Source: Bacillus sp. FJAT-29790 (GTDB lineage: Bacteria; Bacillota; Bacilli; Bacillales; Cytobacillaceae). From it: a DNA stretch of 64,000 nucleotides. This document shows, one piece after another, positions 20,381 through 63,588 of this stretch. The position numbers and the translations under genes are program-made. Under the pieces are notes generated by a model. That model was not told where the DNA came from and ran no database searches. It worked only from the letters and a program-made list of their open reading frames with translations. How positions within the stretch are numbered: the stretch's first letter is position 1; every line of letters starts with the position of its first letter. The stretch is taken from the NCBI RefSeq assembly GCF_019039215.1, contig NZ_JAHNZZ010000001.1, forward strand, positions 2,106,341 through 2,170,340, in the 5' to 3' direction.

Positions 20381-21721
20381 TCACTCCTCTATATTCATCA
20401 CCCGGCAAGTAAATGTCCCATCTGATACCTTTACTTGGACTTGGTCATTTGGATTAATTTGTTTGACCGTTTTGATTAATGTATCTTGATCGGAATAAAC
20501 AAGGCTGTAACCTCTGTCCATAATCTTTAATGGGCTTAAAGCCTCCAAAGTGGTAATCATATGTGAAAAATCCTTTTCTTTCGCTGTCAAAATTTTTCCG
20601 ATGGCCCGATTCAGCCGTTTTTTTGATTTTTCCTGCTGCTCTTTGGCGTTCTGGATTAATTCATTCGGGTGACTTCGATGCAATCGTTTTTGCAGATTTC
20701 CCGATTGATCCAACTTAAGCTCAAAAAGCTTTCTCGCTCCCTTTTCAAGCTGTTCAGTCCACTTATCTACCTGTTCTAGCTTTTGCTCATATAATTTCTG
20801 CGGATAGCGGAAGGCATATGATTTTTGGATTCTTTTAAGCCTTTCATTCTGCAATGATAATTTTTCCTTTAACGATCTAATTAGCCGGGACTGCCTGTCC
20901 AAAATTCTTTCTGTTAAATCTTCGACATGTGGAACAGCCATTTCTGCAGCTCCTGTAGGCGTCGGGGCCCTTAAATCGGCTACAAAATCGGCAATCGTAA
21001 AATCAGTTTCATGTCCGACGGCAGCAATAATTGGAATTTGCGAGTTAAAGATTGATCTTGCCACTGACTCTTCATTAAATGCCCAAAGTTCTTCTATCGA
21101 TCCGCCGCCGCGCCCAATGATTAATACATCGGCTTCTTTTCGGGTATTAGCCGTGTCAATTGCCTTGATAATTGAAGGGGCAGCCTGTCCGCCCTGTACA
21201 ACTGCGGGGAAAATAAGGATATTAGCAACGGGATAGCGTCTTTTAATTGTTGTCAGTATATCCCTAACAGCCGCACCCGTCGGTGAAGTGATAATGCCGA
21301 CTGTTTTCGGAAACTTCGGGATCGGCTGTTTATGTTGCCGGGAAAACAATCCTTCTTTTTCAAGTTTTACCTTCAACTGTTCATATGCTAAAAATAAATC
21401 CCCGATTCCGTCCGGCTGCATTTCCTTTATGTATATTTGATATTGCCCGCTCGGTTCATAAACAGAAAGGTCGCCTTTGATCAGGATTTGCATTCCGTTT
21501 TCAGGAGAAAACTTTATGGACCGGCTATAACTCGAAAACATTACAGCAAGAATGCGCGCTTTTTCATCCTTTAATGTAAAATACATATGGCCGCTGGAAT
21601 GCTGTTTAAAATTCGATATTTCTCCCTTTACCAATACATTCTGAAGGTGTGGATCCACATCAAACTTTCTTTTTATGTATTTCGTGAGAGCATTGACCGT
21701 TAAATAGCGCTGTTCCTTCAT
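20381..21721 (-). CDS. xseA: exodeoxyribonuclease VII large subunit
   Basis: Catalytic subunit of ExoVII, which degrades single-stranded DNA to oligonucleotides. I set the ATG at 21721 ([17 protein letters not shown], 446 aa), which has AAAGGAG upstream. An N-terminal OB fold (about 5-100) is followed by the catalytic ExoVII domain with [31 protein letters not shown] and [25 protein letters not shown] motifs, then a coiled-coil C-terminus. Repeat A1 lies directly upstream, so the promoter of xseA-xseB-ispA-dxs may lie within or beyond that element. Confidence 0.95.
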
Positions 21722-21786
21722 AATCGTCTCCTTTATAGCGGGCATTTTTTCCGAATATGTGCATAATTCCGTGTTTATTTTTGTAA

Positions 21787-22073
21787 GGCTGTTTTAGCAT
21801 ATATTGTTGTTTTGCTTACAAAGTTTGCCCGTTGATTTCCGCTGCGGGCACTTGCTTTCCGCGGGGAGGAACGGAAGCCTCCTCGGCGTAACCGCCTGCG
21901 GGGTCTCCCGCTTCCCTCTATTCCCGCAGGATACTGAATTTACATCCTTGAATCTGCGCACGCACAAAGGAAATGCGATAGCATTTTCGAGGATTCAAGC
22001 ACCCTCCGCTCCAATCAACTCAGATTGTTATATAAAATCACAGTAAAAAACAACAAAGTTTACGAAAACAGCC
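21787..22073. mobile_element. family A MITE-like element, copy A1 (longest)
   Basis: A 287-bp non-coding element with ends GGCTGTTTTAGC... and ...GTTTACGAAAACAGCC forming an imperfect inverted repeat of about 23 bp. Inside, GCCCG...CGGGC and GAGG..CCTC hairpins are visible. The sequence recurs at 24501, 40401 and 62289 in the same orientation. No clear target duplication remains at this copy. Confidence 0.8.
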
Positions 22074-22076
22074 CTG

Positions 22077-22102
22077 TGAAAAGAGGCCTTTCACGGCCTC
22101 CC
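22077..22102 (-). terminator. folD terminator
   Basis: Minus strand GAGGCC-GTGAAA-GGCCTCTTTTC. It lies about 115 bp after the folD stop and directly abuts the end of element A1. Confidence 0.75.
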
Positions 22103-22218
22103 AAACAAAACTGCCCTTCCATTATCAATTTAGTTCCTCCATCCGTCACGTCTAAAACGGTTCAGGAAATCAGAATCACTAAAAGCATAATTAAAAGGGC
22201 AGAATTATGTAAGATTAA

Positions 22219-23085
22219 TTATTGCATTGCAAGGTTTTTCTGAATCGATTTCGCTGCTTTTAATGTATTAAACATGAGCATTGCGATGGTCATCGGACCA
22301 ACACCGCCTGGAACAGGGGTAATGAAACTCGCTACTTCTTTAACCCCATCGAAGTCCACGTCGCCGCAAAGCTTACCTTCACTATTCCGATTGATTCCGA
22401 CATCGATTACGATGGCACCTTCTTTAATATGATCCTTTGTAATCACATTGATCTTCCCGACAGCAGCAACTACGATATCTGCCTGTCTAGTAAATTCTTT
22501 CAAATCCGGTGTACGGGAGTGACAATAAGTAACCGTTGCATTCTTATTTAGAAATAACTGTCCTACAGGCTTTCCAACGATATTGCTTCGTCCGACTACA
22601 ACCACATGTTTACCCGTGAGATCTACATTGATAAAATCTAGCATCTCCATGACTCCATATGGTGTGCAAGGTAAATAAGTATCTTGGCCTGTCATCATGC
22701 GTCCAATATTGACCGGATGAAAACCATCTACATCTTTTTCAGGTGAAATCGTCTCGATCACTTTTACTTCATTAATATGGTTTGGTAATGGCATCTGAAC
22801 AAGGATCCCATGAATTTCCGGATTATTGTTTAATTCAATTACTTGGTCTAGAAGTTCTTGTTCACTAGTCGTTTCAGGAAGTTTAATTAATACGGAATGC
22901 ATTCCAAGATCTTTACAAGTTTTTTCTTTACTGCCTACATATGTTTGAGAAGCTGGATCGTTTCCTACTAATATAACGGCTAAGCCAGGAAGGATCCCTT
23001 CATTTTTAAGTTTTTCGACTTCTTTAGCAATTAGCGCCTTTTTTTGTCTTGCAATCTCTTTTCCGTCAATTAATTGTGCGGTCAT
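22219..23085 (-). CDS. folD: bifunctional methylenetetrahydrofolate dehydrogenase / cyclohydrolase
   Basis: NADP-dependent interconversion of 5,10-methylene-THF and 10-formyl-THF. I chose the ATG at 23085 ([15 protein letters not shown], 288 aa), with AGGAGGAGT upstream; the open frame continues into repeat C3 up to 23256, but that extension is repeat sequence. Motifs: the catalytic Lys in [10 protein letters not shown], the nucleotide-binding [14 protein letters not shown], and PGGVGPMT near the C-terminus. Confidence 0.96.
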
Positions 23086-23103
23086 GTTGACTCCTCCTAA
23101 TTC

Positions 23104-23304
23104 ATAATCAAATTCGCCTTGGCGTATTTGTGCCCAGATTTTTATCGAGCTTTGCTCGATAAATTCCTTCAAAAAATCTGAGGCATCCGCCGGAGGCTTA
23201 ACTTTATTCGGCCGGGGTTTGAACCCCCTACTGAATGGATACCTATTTACATTCATCTCGCCACTTATATCGTTTAGAGACTACGGCTGAATAAAGTTGA
23301 AGGG
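23104..23304. repeat. family C interspersed repeat, copy C3
   Basis: Complete copy of the family C repeat between nusB and folD, with the ATCGAGC..GCTCGAT hairpin, the GGCG..CGCC hairpin and the CTTAACTTTATTC / GAATAAAGTTGAAG inverted arms. It begins about 20 bp upstream of the folD start and separates its ribosome site from nusB. Confidence 0.85.
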
Positions 23305-23323
23305 AACCGTTCGTTAACAATCT

Positions 23324-23713
23324 TCACACTTCTTGTTTGATCTTTGAAAGAACCCCGTTTATAAATTTACTCGATTGATCATCCCCATACAATTTTGCAA
23401 TTTCTATTGCCTCATCGATAACGACATTAGCAGGCACATCCTCACTGCAAAATCGGAGTTCATAAACGGCTAATCTTAGAAGATTTCTATCTACGGTTGC
23501 CAATCTCTCTATTGTCCATTTTTCAAGGTGCTTCTTAATTGATTCATCGATACTGTTTTGGTTTTCTACTGCACCGCTCACAAGCTTAGTTAAATAATTA
23601 TTATTCGGAGCACCTTCCAAAACATGTTCAATTGCTGAGTCAATTTCTACTTGGCTCACATCAATTTGAAATAAAGCTTGTAATGCTTTCTCTCTTGCTA
23701 TTCTTCTTTTCAT
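23324..23713 (-). CDS. nusB: transcription antitermination factor NusB
   Basis: All-helical protein that binds boxA RNA with NusE (S10) and supports rRNA antitermination. From the ATG at 23713 (MKRRIAREKALQALFQID) it has 129 residues with AAGGAG upstream; the longer frame from 23758 has no support. Typical features are the basic N-terminus, the IERLATVDRNLLRLAVYEL segment and VVIDEAIEIAKLYGDDQSSKFINGVL. A Fur-family-like 7-1-7 sequence lies about 135 bp upstream. Confidence 0.95.
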   Translation of the reverse strand: MKRRIAREKALQALFQIDVSQVEIDSAIEHVLEGAPNNNYLTKLVSGAVENQNSIDESIKKHLEKWTIERLATVDRNLLRLAVYELRFCSEDVPANVVIDEAIEIAKLYGDDQSSKFINGVLSKIKQEV

Positions 23714-23846
23714 TCTATTCTTAACTCCTTCTACAGGGAAGATTTCAGGTATAAGCAATAAGGCTAAATCCTTCGCGCAAACTTTAAATCATTAGCAATC
23801 CATCAAGCCTTTGAAAAAAGAGTGCTGCCTGAAATATCGCAAACAA

Positions 23847-23861
23847 TTATAATTATTATCA
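23847..23861. promoter_or_regulatory. Fur/PerR-like 7-1-7 inverted repeat upstream of nusB
   Basis: TTATAAT-T-ATTATCA matches the Fur and PerR core consensuses at 13 of 14 defined positions each. Such AT-rich 15-mers can arise by chance; the remaining part of the 350-bp gap 23714-24063 shows no gene, only the yqhY terminator at its far end. Confidence 0.35.
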
Positions 23862-24015
23862 TTTATGCCATTTCTAAGTTCAAAAATACATAATAAATAA
23901 TAACATAAGTATTCCGTATTCGCACCGAATCCCATGAAAATTTCCCGCGTTAAGACAAATATCGACTTTCATCTACAACTTTAGCAGATAATGATGCAAA
24001 TGAAAACGATTTCCA

Positions 24016-24050
24016 TAAAAAAGAGGATGACCCTTTGAATGAGTCATCCG
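24016..24050 (-). terminator. yqhY terminator
   Basis: Minus strand GGATGACT-CATTCAAAG-GGTCATCC followed by TCTTTTTTATG, 13 bp after the yqhY stop codon. Confidence 0.88.
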
Positions 24051-24063
24051 CGCTAATGTGTAT

Positions 24064-24474
24064 TTACATTTCTTGTTCGTATTCAATTTCATGCTTTTGA
24101 TTTTCGAACATGATTCCTACGACGTGAATATTTACTTCCTGAGCATCAAGAGCAGTCATATTCAATAATGCCTGACGGATATTATCCTGAATTTTTTGTG
24201 CAACGCTAGGAATGGATACCCCAAACGTCATAATGCAATAAACGTCCACTTTAATGCCTTCTTCAGAAAGCTCGACTTTTACGCCTTTACCGTGATTTTT
24301 CTTTCCTAGCCGCTCAACAACACCTGAAGCAAAATTCCCGCGCATTTGCGCAACTCCTTCAACCTCTGATGCCGCAATACCGGCAATAACCTCAATGACT
24401 TCGGGAGCAATCTCAACTTTACCGAGGCCAGTGTTTTCATGATTCATTTCAAGAATGTTATTTTCGCCCATCAT
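24064..24474 (-). CDS. yqhY: Asp23/Gls24 family protein YqhY
   Basis: 136-residue Asp23/Gls24 (DUF322) protein. In B. subtilis YqhY is linked to control of acetyl-CoA carboxylase and its gene follows accBC, the same order as here. GKVEIAPEVIEVIAGIAASEVEGVA near the N-terminus and IPSVAQKIQDNIRQALLNMTALDAQEVNIHV near the C-terminus define the family. Two adjoining ATG codons (24474 and 24471) share the site GGAGGTGTA. Element A2 is inserted just upstream, so it now separates yqhY from accC. Confidence 0.9.
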   Translation of the reverse strand: MMGENNILEMNHENTGLGKVEIAPEVIEVIAGIAASEVEGVAQMRGNFASGVVERLGKKNHGKGVKVELSEEGIKVDVYCIMTFGVSIPSVAQKIQDNIRQALLNMTALDAQEVNIHVVGIMFENQKHEIEYEQEM

Positions 24475-24500
24475 TACACCTCCGTTTTATTTATTTCTAA

Positions 24501-24753
24501 GGCTGTTTTCATATATTGTTGTTTTTAGACTACAAAGTTTGCCCGTTGATTTCCGCTGCGGGCACTTACTTTCAGCGGGGAGGGACTGGAGCCTCCTCTA
24601 TTTCCCGCAGGATCTGAATTTACATCCTTGAATCTGCCCACGCACGAAGGAAATGCGATAGCATTTTCGAGGAGTCAAGTGCCCTCAGTTCCAATCAACT
24701 CAGATAGTTATATAAAATCACAGTAAAAGACAACAAAGTTTACGAAAATAGCC
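24501..24753. mobile_element. family A MITE-like element, copy A2
   Basis: 253 bp with ends GGCTGTTTTCATATATTG and (other strand) GGCTATTTTCGTAAACTTTG, flanked by a perfect 8-bp direct repeat ATTTCTAA at 24493-24500 and 24754-24761. It separates yqhY from accC. Compared with A1 it lacks a roughly 30-bp GC-rich segment after the CCTCCT motif. Confidence 0.88.
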
Positions 24754-24800
24754 ATTTCTAAAGTAAGTTTACAGTTTAGCACTAGACATCATATGCTTTC

Positions 24801-26147
24801 TCACATCACATCGTACAATTCAAGAAACTTCGTGTTAAATTGCCCCTCCACGAACTTTTCATGGCTAAGAAGCTTCAAATGAAACGGAATCGTCGTATGA
24901 ACGCCCTCGATAACAAATTCACTTAGCGCTCTTTTCATCCTAGAAATTGCCTCTTCTCTAGTACTCCCATGTGTGATGACTTTCGCAATCATGGAATCAT
25001 AATAGGGTGGAATTGTATAACCTGGATAGGCGGCAGAATCGACACGAACACCAAAACCACCAGGCGGAAGGTACATCGTAATTTTGCCCGCAGATGGCAT
25101 AAAATTCTTTTCAGGATTTTCGGCATTGATTCGGCATTCGATTGACCAGCCTGTAAATGTTAAATCAGCTTGAGTGAAACTTAACTTTTCACCGGATGCG
25201 ATATTAATCATTTCTTTGATTAAATCGATCCCTGTCACCATTTCAGTAACTGGATGCTCAACCTGTATCCTTGTATTCATTTCCATGAAATAAAACTCTC
25301 GGTTACGATAATCATAGATAAATTCGATCGTGCCAGCACATGTATAACCAGCCGCTTTAGCCGCTTTTACAGCAGCCATTCCCATTTCGTTACGAGTTTC
25401 CCCGTCTATAGCAGGTGAAGGTGTTTCTTCAAGAAGCTTTTGAAGTCGCCTTTGAACTGAACAATCCCTCTCGCCAAGGTGAACAACGTTACCAAAGTTA
25501 TCTGCCATCACTTGGATTTCAACATGACGGAAATCTTCAATAAATTTTTCAATATAAACGCCAGAGTTTCCAAAAGCTGTTAATGCTTCCTGCTGGGTAA
25601 TATTAATTCCGTTCACAAGTTCCTGCTCATTCCGCGCTACTCGGATTCCTTTTCCACCGCCTCCAGCTGTAGCTTTAATGATTACTGGATAATCAATTCT
25701 GTTAGCAAGTTCAATGGCTTCATCAATATCCTTGATAATTCCGGTAGATCCCGGCACAATCGGGACACCTGCTTCCTTCATCGTTTCTCGGGCGATATCC
25801 TTTGTCCCCATCTTCGTGATTGCTTCCGGAGAAGGGCCGACAAAAATAATATTACATTCCCTGCAGAGCTCGGAAAAGTCTGCGTTCTCAGCTAAAAAGC
25901 CGTAGCCGGGATGGATCGCATCACAATCAGTAAGCTTTGCGACGCTAATAATATTCGTAAAATTCAAATAACTATCTTTCGATGCTTTCGGACCGATACA
26001 ATATGCCTCATCGGCAAGTTGAACATGAAGAGATTCTCTATCAGCCTCAGAGTATACGGCTACAGATTCAATCCCCATTTCTCGGCAAGCACGAATGATG
26101 CGAACAGCGATTTCTCCTCTGTTTGCAATTAACAGTTTTTTTATCAT
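24801..26147 (-). CDS. accC: acetyl-CoA carboxylase biotin carboxylase subunit
   Basis: ATP-dependent carboxylation of the biotin on AccB, the first half-reaction of malonyl-CoA formation. The 448-residue ATP-grasp protein has [19 protein letters not shown] at the N-terminus, the glycine-rich loop [13 protein letters not shown] near 160, [14 protein letters not shown], and the catalytic [14 protein letters not shown] near 288. Normal length. It follows accB by 14 bp. Cytosolic. Confidence 0.96.
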
Positions 26148-34740: not shown

Positions 34741-34968
34741 ATAAAAAGCAATAACCGAATGGTCATTGCTTTAATAACAAGTTTATAAGAGCCGCCTTTG
34801 CCGCCGATTTTTATGGAGTTTCAAACCTGCTCCTCCAGGTGGGTGTCCGCAATTGCCTTCTCAACGTCCTCTCTTCTAGGAGGCATGTTGTTCTAGCAAT
34901 GGTTTTGAACTCCCTAATACTAAATAAAGGTTGAAACTTCATATACAAGCGAACAACGCAGCTTCTGT
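34741..34968 (-). ncRNA. ssrS: 6S-like RNA
   Basis: A structured RNA of about 225 nt on the minus strand, after efp. GGAGTTCAAAACC pairs with GGTTTGAAACTCC, ATTGC with GCAAT and CAAC with GTTG within the arm, AAGTTT with AAACTT at the base, and ACCTG..CAGGT forms a small side hairpin. GAGAAGGCAATTGCGGACAC, CACCU and CGGCGGCA occur in the same order as in E. coli 6S RNA (GAGAAGCC..CUGCGACGACAC, CACCUUG, GCGGCGGCA). A promoter (TTGTGA-N17-TAAGAT, 34975-35003) precedes it and a terminator ends it. 6S RNA binds sigma-A polymerase in stationary phase. Ends are approximate. Confidence 0.75.
34742..34772. terminator. terminator of the 6S-like RNA
   Basis: Minus strand AAAGCAATGACC-ATTC-GGTTATTGCTTTTTAT; near-symmetric, so it may also end the SIMPL transcript on the plus strand. 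Confidence 0.85.
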
Positions 34969-40347: not shown

Positions 40348-40387
40348 CCAAAAAAGAAGATGGACGAAAATCCCCATCTTCTTTTTG
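40348..40387 (-). terminator. nrdJ terminator
   Basis: Minus strand AAAAAGAAGATGGG-GATTTTCG-TCCATCTTCTTTTTTGG, on the minus strand downstream of nrdJ but separated from its stop codon by element A3. Confidence 0.82.
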
Positions 40388-40400
40388 GTTATTATTTAAA

Positions 40401-40523
40401 GGCTCTTTTCACATATAATGTGTTTTTAGCCTTCAAAGTTTGCCCGTTGATCTCCGCTCCAATCAACTCAGATATTTATATAAAATTAAACTAAAAAAAG
40501 CAACAAAGTTTACGAAAATAGCC
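40401..40523. mobile_element. family A MITE-like element, internally deleted copy A3
   Basis: 123 bp with the same ends as A1 and A2 (GGCTCTTTTCAC... and ...TTTACGAAAATAGCC), flanked by TATTTAAA (40393-40400) and TTTTTAAA (40524-40531), a 7/8 match. The whole GC-rich centre is gone, with the join at the short repeat TCCGCT that flanks the missing part in longer copies. It sits 8 bp beyond the nrdJ stop codon. Confidence 0.82.
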
Positions 40524-52990: not shown

Positions 52991-53040
52991 CAAAAAAAGG
53001 ACAAAGTATCCCCTCTAAATATGAGAAGATCTCTGTCCTT
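52991..53040 (-). terminator. riboswitch-controlled terminator before gcvT
   Basis: Minus strand AAGGACAGAG...ACTTTGTCCTTTTTTT. The left arm overlaps the 3' end of aptamer 2 (GGACAGAG), so glycine binding should block the hairpin and allow read-through into gcvT. Confidence 0.85.
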
Positions 53041-53204
53041 GCACCTGAAAGTTTACCTGATCGGCTTTCCCCTTTGGTGGCTCCCGAAAAAAGAGCACTC
53101 TCCAGAGTTGCGTCATACAAGAGTTCTTTTGCCTGAGAGATTCACAATTTTCATTGTTTGCTCCTTCGGCGCTACTAATGTAGTCTCTCCTCTTGTAATC
53201 ATCC
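53031..53204 (-). promoter_or_regulatory. tandem glycine riboswitch
   Basis: Two glycine aptamers in series on the minus strand. Aptamer 1 (about 53204-53112): GGAGAG..GCGCCGAAGGAGCAA..ATCTCTCAGGCAAAAGAAC. Aptamer 2 (about 53114-53031): TGGAGAG..GCCACCAAAGGGGAAA..CTTTCAGGTGCAAGGACAGAG. It lies about 140 bp upstream of gcvT and is followed by a terminator, so it should be an ON switch for glycine degradation. Confidence 0.96.
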
Positions 53205-53447
53205 GCATTTATAAATTTTTCCAAGTTGGTTCATACTAAACGCAAATGGCATCCTTACAGGCACCAAATATGATGAAAGTATAAAAGCCTAATTATTTCC
53301 TTCATCCTAAACACAAATTGAAAATACTTAAAAATTATTTCGATAAACTAATTTAAAGTGGCAAATTTCAAAACTTTCAAAGCTAATATTATCCTACCAT
53401 TAGAATTGTATTTCGGCAATGGCTATATTTTTTTAGTTTTAAAGAAA

Positions 53448-62254: not shown

Positions 62255-62285
62255 AAAAAGCGATGGGACCCCATCGCTTTTTTAT
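62255..62285 (+). terminator. yqgY terminator
   Basis: AAAAAAGCGATGGG-ACC-CCATCGCTTTTTTA; its T tract runs straight into the target duplication of element A4. Confidence 0.92.
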
Positions 62286-62288
62286 TAT

Positions 62289-62516
62289 GGCTCTTTTCGC
62301 ATATATTGTTGTTTTTAGCCTTCAAAGTTTGCCCGTTGATTTCCGCTGCGGGCACTTGCTTCCGCGGGGAGGGACGGGAGCCTCCTCGGCGTTACCGCCT
62401 GTGGGATCTCCCGTTTCCCTCTATTTCCCGCAGGAGTCAAGTGCCCTCCGCTCCAATCAACTCAGATTGTTATATAAAATCATACTAAAAAAGCAACAAA
62501 GTTTACGAAAACAACC
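62289..62516. mobile_element. family A MITE-like element, copy A4
   Basis: 228 bp with ends GGCTCTTTTCGCATATATTG and ...GTTTACGAAAACAACC, flanked by a perfect 8-bp direct repeat TTTATTAT at 62281-62288 and 62517-62524. The right duplicate overlaps the stop codon of the neighbouring methyltransferase gene, so the insertion was at the exact 3' end of two convergent genes. It lacks the segment GAATTTACATCC...TTTTCGAGG found in A1 and A2. Confidence 0.88.
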
Positions 62517-62520
62517 TTTA

Positions 62521-63588
62521 TTATTTCTCCATCCCCTTTTTCTGCAGAATCACATGAAATGCAGAGCTCATCCCAGATGGCATGATCAGACTGCGAATCG
62601 CCCGGTTTCTTTTGCTTATTTCCGAAAATGGATTAGGATCATAATTCTCCTGTAAATCCTCTAAAATGCCAGTATGAAGTAAAAATTCATCTTGGCGCCA
62701 TTTTTTGATAAACTGTAATCCTTTTTCGTTACCTAGACGGATCAATGAATCGAAATGAACGTGACTTGTAATATCCATTTCTCCGGGATGCTCTAAGATA
62801 TTGTTGATTTGCTGATGTTTATAATACCCTCTTAAGCTTCCATCCCTTCTCCCTGGCTCTAGCCACTCTTTATTGGAGTAACCGTAATCGACAGTCAGCA
62901 CCAGTCCCCTTTCTAGCACTTTTGCAATTTCAGAGATCATATTCTCCATCTGCAATGGAATTTCGATTCTTTGGTTCTCTTCTAATGTCAATCCACTCGC
63001 TTCTAAAAATGACCGTATCCGATCATTCCCCAATGGTACCGTCGTTTCCGCCAGTTGATCACTTTTTATGGTTACCAAAACCTCCATTAAACGACCGTCA
63101 TGTTTTTCAATCACATGAACTGGAAAAGCATCGAACAGCTCATTTGAAAAAATTAAACCATGAAACGAGGATATTACCTCAAGACTTGCTATTTGCTTGA
63201 CTCTTTCATTAAAAATAATTTGTTCCTGCTGCAATTTCCGATGATACGGACTTTCTTCCAAAATATAATAATGGATTGGGTCTGTTGAAAGGGTATTCCA
63301 TTCTTCAATAAAGGCTTTAGCAAATCGCCCTGTCCCTGCCCCGATTTCACATATAGCCGAAGGAAGATCATATTCGCGAACTTGTTTATAAAACCAGTTC
63401 GCAAGCGACCGTCCGTAAATATCTGAAATATTGCTAGAAGTTATAAAATCCCCTTCTCGTCCAATTTTATTTTTTTCTTTCATGTAATATCCATATTGCG
63501 GATGATAAAGGGCCTGTTCAATATATTCCTCGTATGTAATCCTTTGCAGGGGTTTTTTCAATATATAATCTTTGAGATAATTAATCAT
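62521..63588 (-). CDS. MidA/NDUFAF7-type SAM-dependent methyltransferase
   Basis: 355-residue class I methyltransferase of the COG1565 family. Motifs: an N-terminal TYEEYIEQALYHPQYGYY, DFITSSNISDIYGRSLANW, the SAM motif CEIGAGTGRFAKAF near 80 and a conserved FSNELFDAFPVHV near 150. Mitochondrial relatives methylate a complex I arginine; the bacterial substrate is unknown. Its stop codon coincides with the target duplication of A4. Transcribed alone from near 63600. Confidence 0.88.
   Translation of the reverse strand: MINYLKDYILKKPLQRITYEEYIEQALYHPQYGYYMKEKNKIGREGDFITSSNISDIYGRSLANWFYKQVREYDLPSAICEIGAGTGRFAKAFIEEWNTLSTDPIHYYILEESPYHRKLQQEQIIFNERVKQIASLEVISSFHGLIFSNELFDAFPVHVIEKHDGRLMEVLVTIKSDQLAETTVPLGNDRIRSFLEASGLTLEENQRIEIPLQMENMISEIAKVLERGLVLTVDYGYSNKEWLEPGRRDGSLRGYYKHQQINNILEHPGEMDITSHVHFDSLIRLGNEKGLQFIKKWRQDEFLLHTGILEDLQENYDPNPFSEISKRNRAIRSLIMPSGMSSAFHVILQKKGMEK

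Follow-up and report, generated by a model that had tools for sequence, protein, structure and literature searches.

Family A copies in the window

The window analysed in this study is a 64,000-nucleotide stretch of the genome of Bacillus sp. FJAT-29790, and it carries four plus-strand copies of a short repeat that we term family A. Direct reading of the sequence finds all four at the places given in a preliminary description. Copy A1 (21787-22073, 287 bp) has a full hairpin core, A2 (24501-24753, 253 bp) lacks part of the hairpin tip, A3 (40401-40523, 123 bp) has its hairpin collapsed to GTTGATCTCCGCTCCAATCAAC, and A4 (62289-62516, 228 bp) represents a short-core form. The GC-rich core of A1 occupies 21829-22022 on the minus strand, corresponding to positions 43-236 of the copy. 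The GGCT...AGCC ends with imperfect inverted repeats ascribed earlier to the family hold generally, although the right end of A4 reads AACC instead of AGCC. Perfect 8-bp target duplications flank A2 (ATTTCTAA at 24493-24500 and 24754-24761) and A4 (TTTATTAT at 62281-62288 and 62517-62524), and the A3 flanks TATTTAAA and TTTTTAAA agree at 7/8 positions, as also described previously. The flanks of A1, TTTTGTAA and CTGTGAAA, agree at 5/8 positions.

Two long minus-strand ORFs flank each of the copies A1, A2 and A3. From their sequences, we take these neighbours to be xseA and folD for A1, an Asp23-type gene and accC for A2, and genes for a patatin and a ribonucleotide reductase for A3. The minus strand of the A1 core is co-directional with both adjoining genes. 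By eye, A3 and A4 are located directly behind terminator-like hairpins with T runs (40348-40400 and 62255-62290).

A motif within the left half, CAAAGTTTGCCCGTTGAT, has four matches in the window when up to three mismatches are permitted, all of them exact, versus 0.11 expected. Across the genome, the right-end motif occurs 279 times with up to two mismatches (reversed-pattern control, 10), a count that also takes in family B, whose ends are related to those of family A. The left core junction occurs 195 times with up to three mismatches (control, 0). BLAST searches of the same genome yielded 379 candidates, of which 40 were scored and all 40 matched. The copy number in this Bacillus-type genome is well over a hundred. 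Some of the copies used below (loci L031-L060) derive from a listing from which only plus-strand places were made into loci. An exact match to a 49-base stretch of family A was found, within a collection of named genomes, only in Cytobacillus depressus (L326, 6081-6129).

Evidence for transposition

To evaluate the preliminary claim that family A is a mobile MITE that generates 8-bp duplications, 104 distinct right ends were collected from stretches fetched from its own genome. For 85 of these a left end matching at 16 or more of 23 positions was found, and the other 19 were dropped. Left ends were chosen blind to the flanking sequences, except that the boundary of A2 was shifted two bases by hand to GGCT. 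Duplications matching at 7/8 positions or better flank 55 of the 85 copies, and perfect duplications flank 28, compared with 2.14% and 0.28%, respectively, of mismatched left/right pairs; the remaining 30 copies fall below 7/8. Flank identity is maximal at a length of 8 (0.81; n=73), and both shorter lengths (4-7) and longer ones (9-13) give 0.37-0.59. The duplications are 90% A+T, versus 66% in the flanks, and follow roughly the pattern T-W6-A.

Copies with well-matched ends are 95-292 bp long and cluster at ~290, 228 and 95-125 bp. They are short, carry imperfect terminal inverted repeats, and encode no transposase; three ORFs of at least 100 amino acids extend into A3 and A4, and Pfam matches none of them at E<=0.1, which agrees with the earlier description. 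Because duplications are so much more frequent at the copies than in mismatched pairs, we conclude that family A copies are MITEs, that is, real miniature mobile elements.

Empty sites, whose examination had been proposed in the preliminary description, were looked for at orthologous places. At the A2 place the orthologous gap measures 23-57 bp and the element is absent in 29/29 other species (loci were obtained for 29 of the 35 species with a match). At the A1 place, BLAST confirmed that the gap holds no A-type element in 29/29 genomes; related copies occur elsewhere in the neighbourhood of several of these genomes, and inside the gap only at locus L245. Both gaps are too diverged for a base-precise join, so these cases represent absence of the element and not base-precise empty alleles. 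The L245 element (genome G001, 1288-1469) is a different, sister MITE with an 8/8 duplication, TTTAAGAA. Its base-precise empty site is present in a relative (G002, L240), and this is the only base-precise filled/empty pair. Another dispersed repeat, which resembles GAAAAGCGCAAGCGCCTTG...GGAGCTAGACA and is without GGCT ends, was seen by eye in the xseA-/folD-like gap at loci L239, L243, L250, L252, L255, L261, L264 and L265.

Insertion sequences with matching ends

The left end of family A is GGCTNTTTTCGCATATATTGTTG and the right end, read inward, is GGCTGTTTTCGTAAA(C/G)TTTGTTG. Full-length insertion sequences with matching ends, the kind of element that the preliminary description suggested searching for, exist in relatives as IS1595-family elements, whereas no such helper is found in the genome that carries the window. 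The IS1595 domain PF12762 was found in 13/36 genomes of the genus, but at E<=0.001 it has no match in our genome (98.68% complete, 9 contigs). Likewise, the transposase of locus L099 has matches at E<=1e-20 in 80/193 genomes of the taxonomic family and none in this one. Assignment of these transposases to IS1595 is given by NF033547 (208 and 213 bits, cut-off 75) and by PF12762 scores above cut-off, and 2/6 plasmid relatives are annotated as 'IS1595 family transposase'. A Cytobacillus solani plasmid (L093) carries a full-length element whose ends match and whose transposase is broken, flanked on each side by TAAAATAA.

Motif-guided end finding at 20 PF12762 loci located ends in 12 and none in eight. 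Ends of the type found in the close IS1595 group, which match family A (group 1), are flanked by 8/8 duplications at L097 and L099 and by 7/8 duplications at L104 and L106. Another end type (group 2) has 8/8 duplications at L098, L100, L102, L105, L109, L110 and L111/L115, the last two being one element. A motif-free search was then applied to 30 loci matching the L099 transposase, in which GG...CC ends with duplications of at least 7/8 were ranked by inverted-repeat match. Among 23 close-clade loci (transposase 58-100% identical to that of L099), 11 have group-1 ends and 8/8 duplications, with L176 and L182 repeating L099 and L097, and 12 have no convincing ends. Among seven distant loci (42-46% identical), two have the other end type, and one of these, L200, repeats L098.

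MITE ends and the ends of these 11 insertion sequences agree at 17-21 of 22 positions. In all 11 cases the end that precedes the transposase start is closer to the left end of the MITE than to its right end (margin, 1-3 of 22 positions), and the opposite end is closer to the right end of the MITE in 8/11, with three ties. This asymmetry lends modest support, and the elements are related to each other. The 8-bp duplication is common to the MITE and the IS1595 elements.

Some full-length elements carry additional genes. A GNAT acetyltransferase gene is located inside the ends of L099 (985-2826), and small extra ORFs without a family match lie inside L097 (988-2670) and L109 (856-2498). Partial BLAST matches in relatives (query 1-98 or 141-253) were considered as candidate ends of full-length insertion sequences and rejected, because BLAST of 13 such stretches revealed that the two halves are near each other and are more MITE copies (one, L092, is cut by a contig end). 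Inspection by eye of two of the 13 revealed no transposase-like ORF.

A hairpin core shared with a second MITE family

The GC-rich core of family A reads GTTGATT ... AATCAAC. Strong folding is predicted for A1 in its entirety, with energies of -110.8 kcal/mol (z -6.4) for the minus strand and -98.3 kcal/mol (z -5.6) for the plus strand. Twenty stretches from the genus were selected for matching only in their inner part; 13 match at 80-86% identity over ~200 bp, two at 67% and 79%, and five in pieces. A 182-bp MITE with group-2 ends (GGCTCTGTTAAA...TGTTGAT), or its core, was found in 103/121 genomes of the taxonomic family and in 21/25 genera, although many of the listed matches comprise the core only. 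Thirty loci of this type-2 MITE were collected (one per genome), and both ends are present in 26. Duplications of at least 7/8 flank 20 of these 26 and perfect ones flank 14, compared with 1.5% in the control. Family B, in the same genome as the window, has group-1-like ends with the core reversed, and also occurs in core-less forms of 114 bp. Thus, three combinations of ends and orientation are found with one common core.

At one orthologous place with related flanks, L065 carries an A-type core and L070 a type-2-like core. This single case suggests recombination between the families. The orthologous copies L064 and L174 have both lost the hairpin tip, which disfavours strict selection on the tip.

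A repeated motif, TCCGCTCC, on both sides of the hairpin was considered as a possible 8-bp duplication made by insertion of the hairpin itself. This idea was rejected since the right-hand side had been anchored on a wrong motif in 26/30 rows. One pair in the loop there changes from C-G (19/30) to T-A (10/30), which fits an internal loop. In the cores of L169, L062 and L290, CTTGCTTTCC is seen as its near reverse complement GCAGCGAAC, as if flipped. Core-like matches are present on 15 plasmid records, and on one of these, a Priestia megaterium plasmid (L094, 1480-1700), the core follows a left end of type-2-like sequence, GGCTCTGTTAAA. Rfam has no match at E<=1 in 21700-24900 of the window and none over A1-A4 at the gathering score. 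Elsewhere in the window, Rfam places a 6S RNA (34785-34967) and a glycine riboswitch (53029-53206) on the minus strand at its gathering threshold.

Covariation and strand bias

Covariation was scored by counting a pair as covarying if two or more Watson-Crick types were each present in at least two sequences. The type-2 hairpins (n=30) yield 8/44 covarying pairs versus 0-2 for slid partners, and the short cores of family A yield 2/47 versus 0-1, with the structures being minimum-energy folds of the consensus, so that paired-cell counts lean towards the folds. RNAalifold gives a poor consensus for 39 aligned cores (covariation term -0.25, two-sided change in 1/29 pairs) and only -9.2 and -8.0 kcal/mol for 79 hairpins (79/81 aligned). 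At pairs with a Watson-Crick majority, again in minimum-energy consensus folds, G-U outnumbers A-C on the A-minus strand (28:15 and 35:21), compared with ratios of 12:27 and 18:43 when the plus strand is counted on the structure predicted for that strand. The excess on the A-minus strand holds for both sets and for structures derived from either strand, with counts uncorrected for kinship.

The direction of the elements relative to adjoining genes (ORFs of at least 100 amino acids) was assessed in tandem contexts. The minus strand of family A is co-directional with the genes in 35/37 contexts (28:1 for copies with a core and 7:1 for core-less copies), whereas family B is opposite in 6/7. The difference between 35:2 and 1:6 is significant (Fisher p=2.7e-5) with four unclassified contexts excluded (two '--', one '+-' and one '-+'). 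When expressed by core strand, the bias is 32:2 in this genome and 18:0 among type-2 loci of other genomes (27 contexts, 29 loci). A-type copies from genus searches give 4:2 (L061-L079) and 2:4 (L080-L092), or 6:6 together, and accC/folD loci give 2:0. Two samples therefore show a strong strand bias, and a third, which is small, shows none.

The bias persists in core-less copies, so something other than the hairpin may cause it. The bias may also be driven by replication alone. However, elements at 1.05/1.07 Mb and at 1.67/1.72 Mb of the same genome are oriented oppositely, and the genes of the first pair are as well, which favours local gene direction over replication.

Proposed origin of family A

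We consider it very probable that family A is a non-autonomous MITE with IS1595-type ends and an IS1595-type helper, whose core is common to a second MITE family. What was observed directly is that the copies were inserted with target duplications, that IS1595 elements have ends matching theirs, and that the core is common to the two families. Judging from the ends, family A was most probably moved in trans by transposases of the IS1595 family and not of the ISL3 family. One group of IS1595-family insertion sequences has ends like those of family A, and a transposase from such an element, given in trans, would act at GGCT/AGCC. The element would thereby insert into AT-rich DNA and make the 8-bp duplication. 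The hairpin module is also found in a second, widespread MITE with ends like those of another IS1595 group. It is inferred that the transposase acts in trans, that the helper was lost and that the core was transferred between end types; no helper was detected in the genome, and the case for its identity comes from ends seen in other species. Since no such transposase is detectable in the genome, the present copies are probably fossils or await a re-imported insertion sequence.

Two other accounts of the repeat are very hard to maintain. The copies could be ordinary dispersed repeats that spread through recombination or segmental duplication without transposition, and the different core types between the related flanks of L065 and L070 do look as if cores recombine. 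However, the sharp 8-bp duplications differ between sites, and with the filled/empty pair L245/L240 they refute this account for the spread itself, which leaves recombination as a process that may homogenise the cores. The preliminary description had instead proposed a link to ISL3. Elements of that family make 8-bp duplications and have GGCTCTTT-like ends, which also fits family A, and the one ISL3 locus with clear ends (L327, GGGTCTTCGGAATATATAGTGG) exhibits an 8/8 duplication. In contrast, the ISL3 transposase domain PF01610 was not found in our genome by a search that was positive in 4/14 control genomes. It occurs at nine loci in 8/36 genomes of the genus, and when 22-base stretches of these nine loci are compared with the family A ends, the best agreement is 14-16/22, never more than 16/22. 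Given that ends of the family A type are carried by IS1595 elements, an ISL3-derived MITE is scarcely credible, and the proposed link is abandoned.

A further hypothesis, compatible with an IS1595-type MITE, places the core first: a structured RNA or DNA, kept because of an effect on transcripts, that has come to lie between IS1595-type ends of different kinds. The same core does occur under two end types and, as families A and B show, in both directions with respect to group-1 ends, and the bias tracks the core strand. The covarying pairs of the type-2 hairpins, the G-U excess on the A-minus strand with its reversal on the plus strand, and the co-directionality of the core strand with tandem genes also argue for this hypothesis. 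Set against it are the bias of core-less A copies, the unbiased genus searches, the loss of the hairpin tip at L064 and L174, and the weak covariation of family A alone, for which RNAalifold support is almost nil. Moreover, pairing changes may stem from exchange between copies, and a leading-strand gene bias may explain part of the strand bias. On balance we regard this hypothesis as possible but rather unlikely. Its extended form is more speculative and in our judgement doubtful: a structured cargo module of the Bacillaceae, with the strand 5'-GTTGATTGGAGCGGA ... GGAGCGGAAATCAAC-3', would ride on MITEs with different IS1595-type ends, be exchanged by recombination, and be retained almost solely where this strand is co-transcribed with its neighbours. 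The module would then be a domesticated or self-protecting transcribed hairpin and not inert filler.

Relation to known elements

IS1595-family insertion sequences were reportedly set out by Siguier and colleagues in 2009. Family A is like the full-length relatives described above in its matching ends and 8-bp duplications, and unlike them in having no transposase of its own and none detected in its genome. It is like the ISL3 family in its 8-bp duplication, as at L327, and in the GGCT-like ends of that family, and unlike it in the points of transposase and ends already given.

A MITE with an IS1595-type helper is an already known kind of element. The archaeon Haloquadratum walsbyi has an IS1595-family MITE related to ISHwa6, which is listed as 165 bp long, present in seven copies, and bounded by 25-bp inverted and 8-bp direct repeats (PMC3852290). 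Both elements are short, and family A very probably belongs with the same family. Family A differs from the archaeal MITE by residing in a bacterium, by having hundreds of ends, and by its GC-rich core common to two end types. Correia and ERIC elements are MITEs that can occur in transcripts and be processed by RNase III or RNase E, according to a review (PMC10969869). Family A may resemble them as a MITE that could sit in transcripts. The word 'orientation' is absent from the main text of that review.

Family A is set apart by a core that recurs between different ends and is widespread in a taxonomic family, and by the strand bias. No title or abstract opening in the literature searched names the repeat, with subscription journals thinly covered, and it may well have been published. 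These findings assign a repeat that is very abundant in these genomes to a transposase family, reveal that the interior of a MITE can occur under different ends, and make strand bias relative to adjoining genes a testable property. They also advise caution to annotators and assemblers, as genes of housekeeping type surround the window copies, and N runs occur in a few of the copies in this genome. Such runs are located inside or at copies L117, L037, L154 and L022 and represent assembly gaps or masking.
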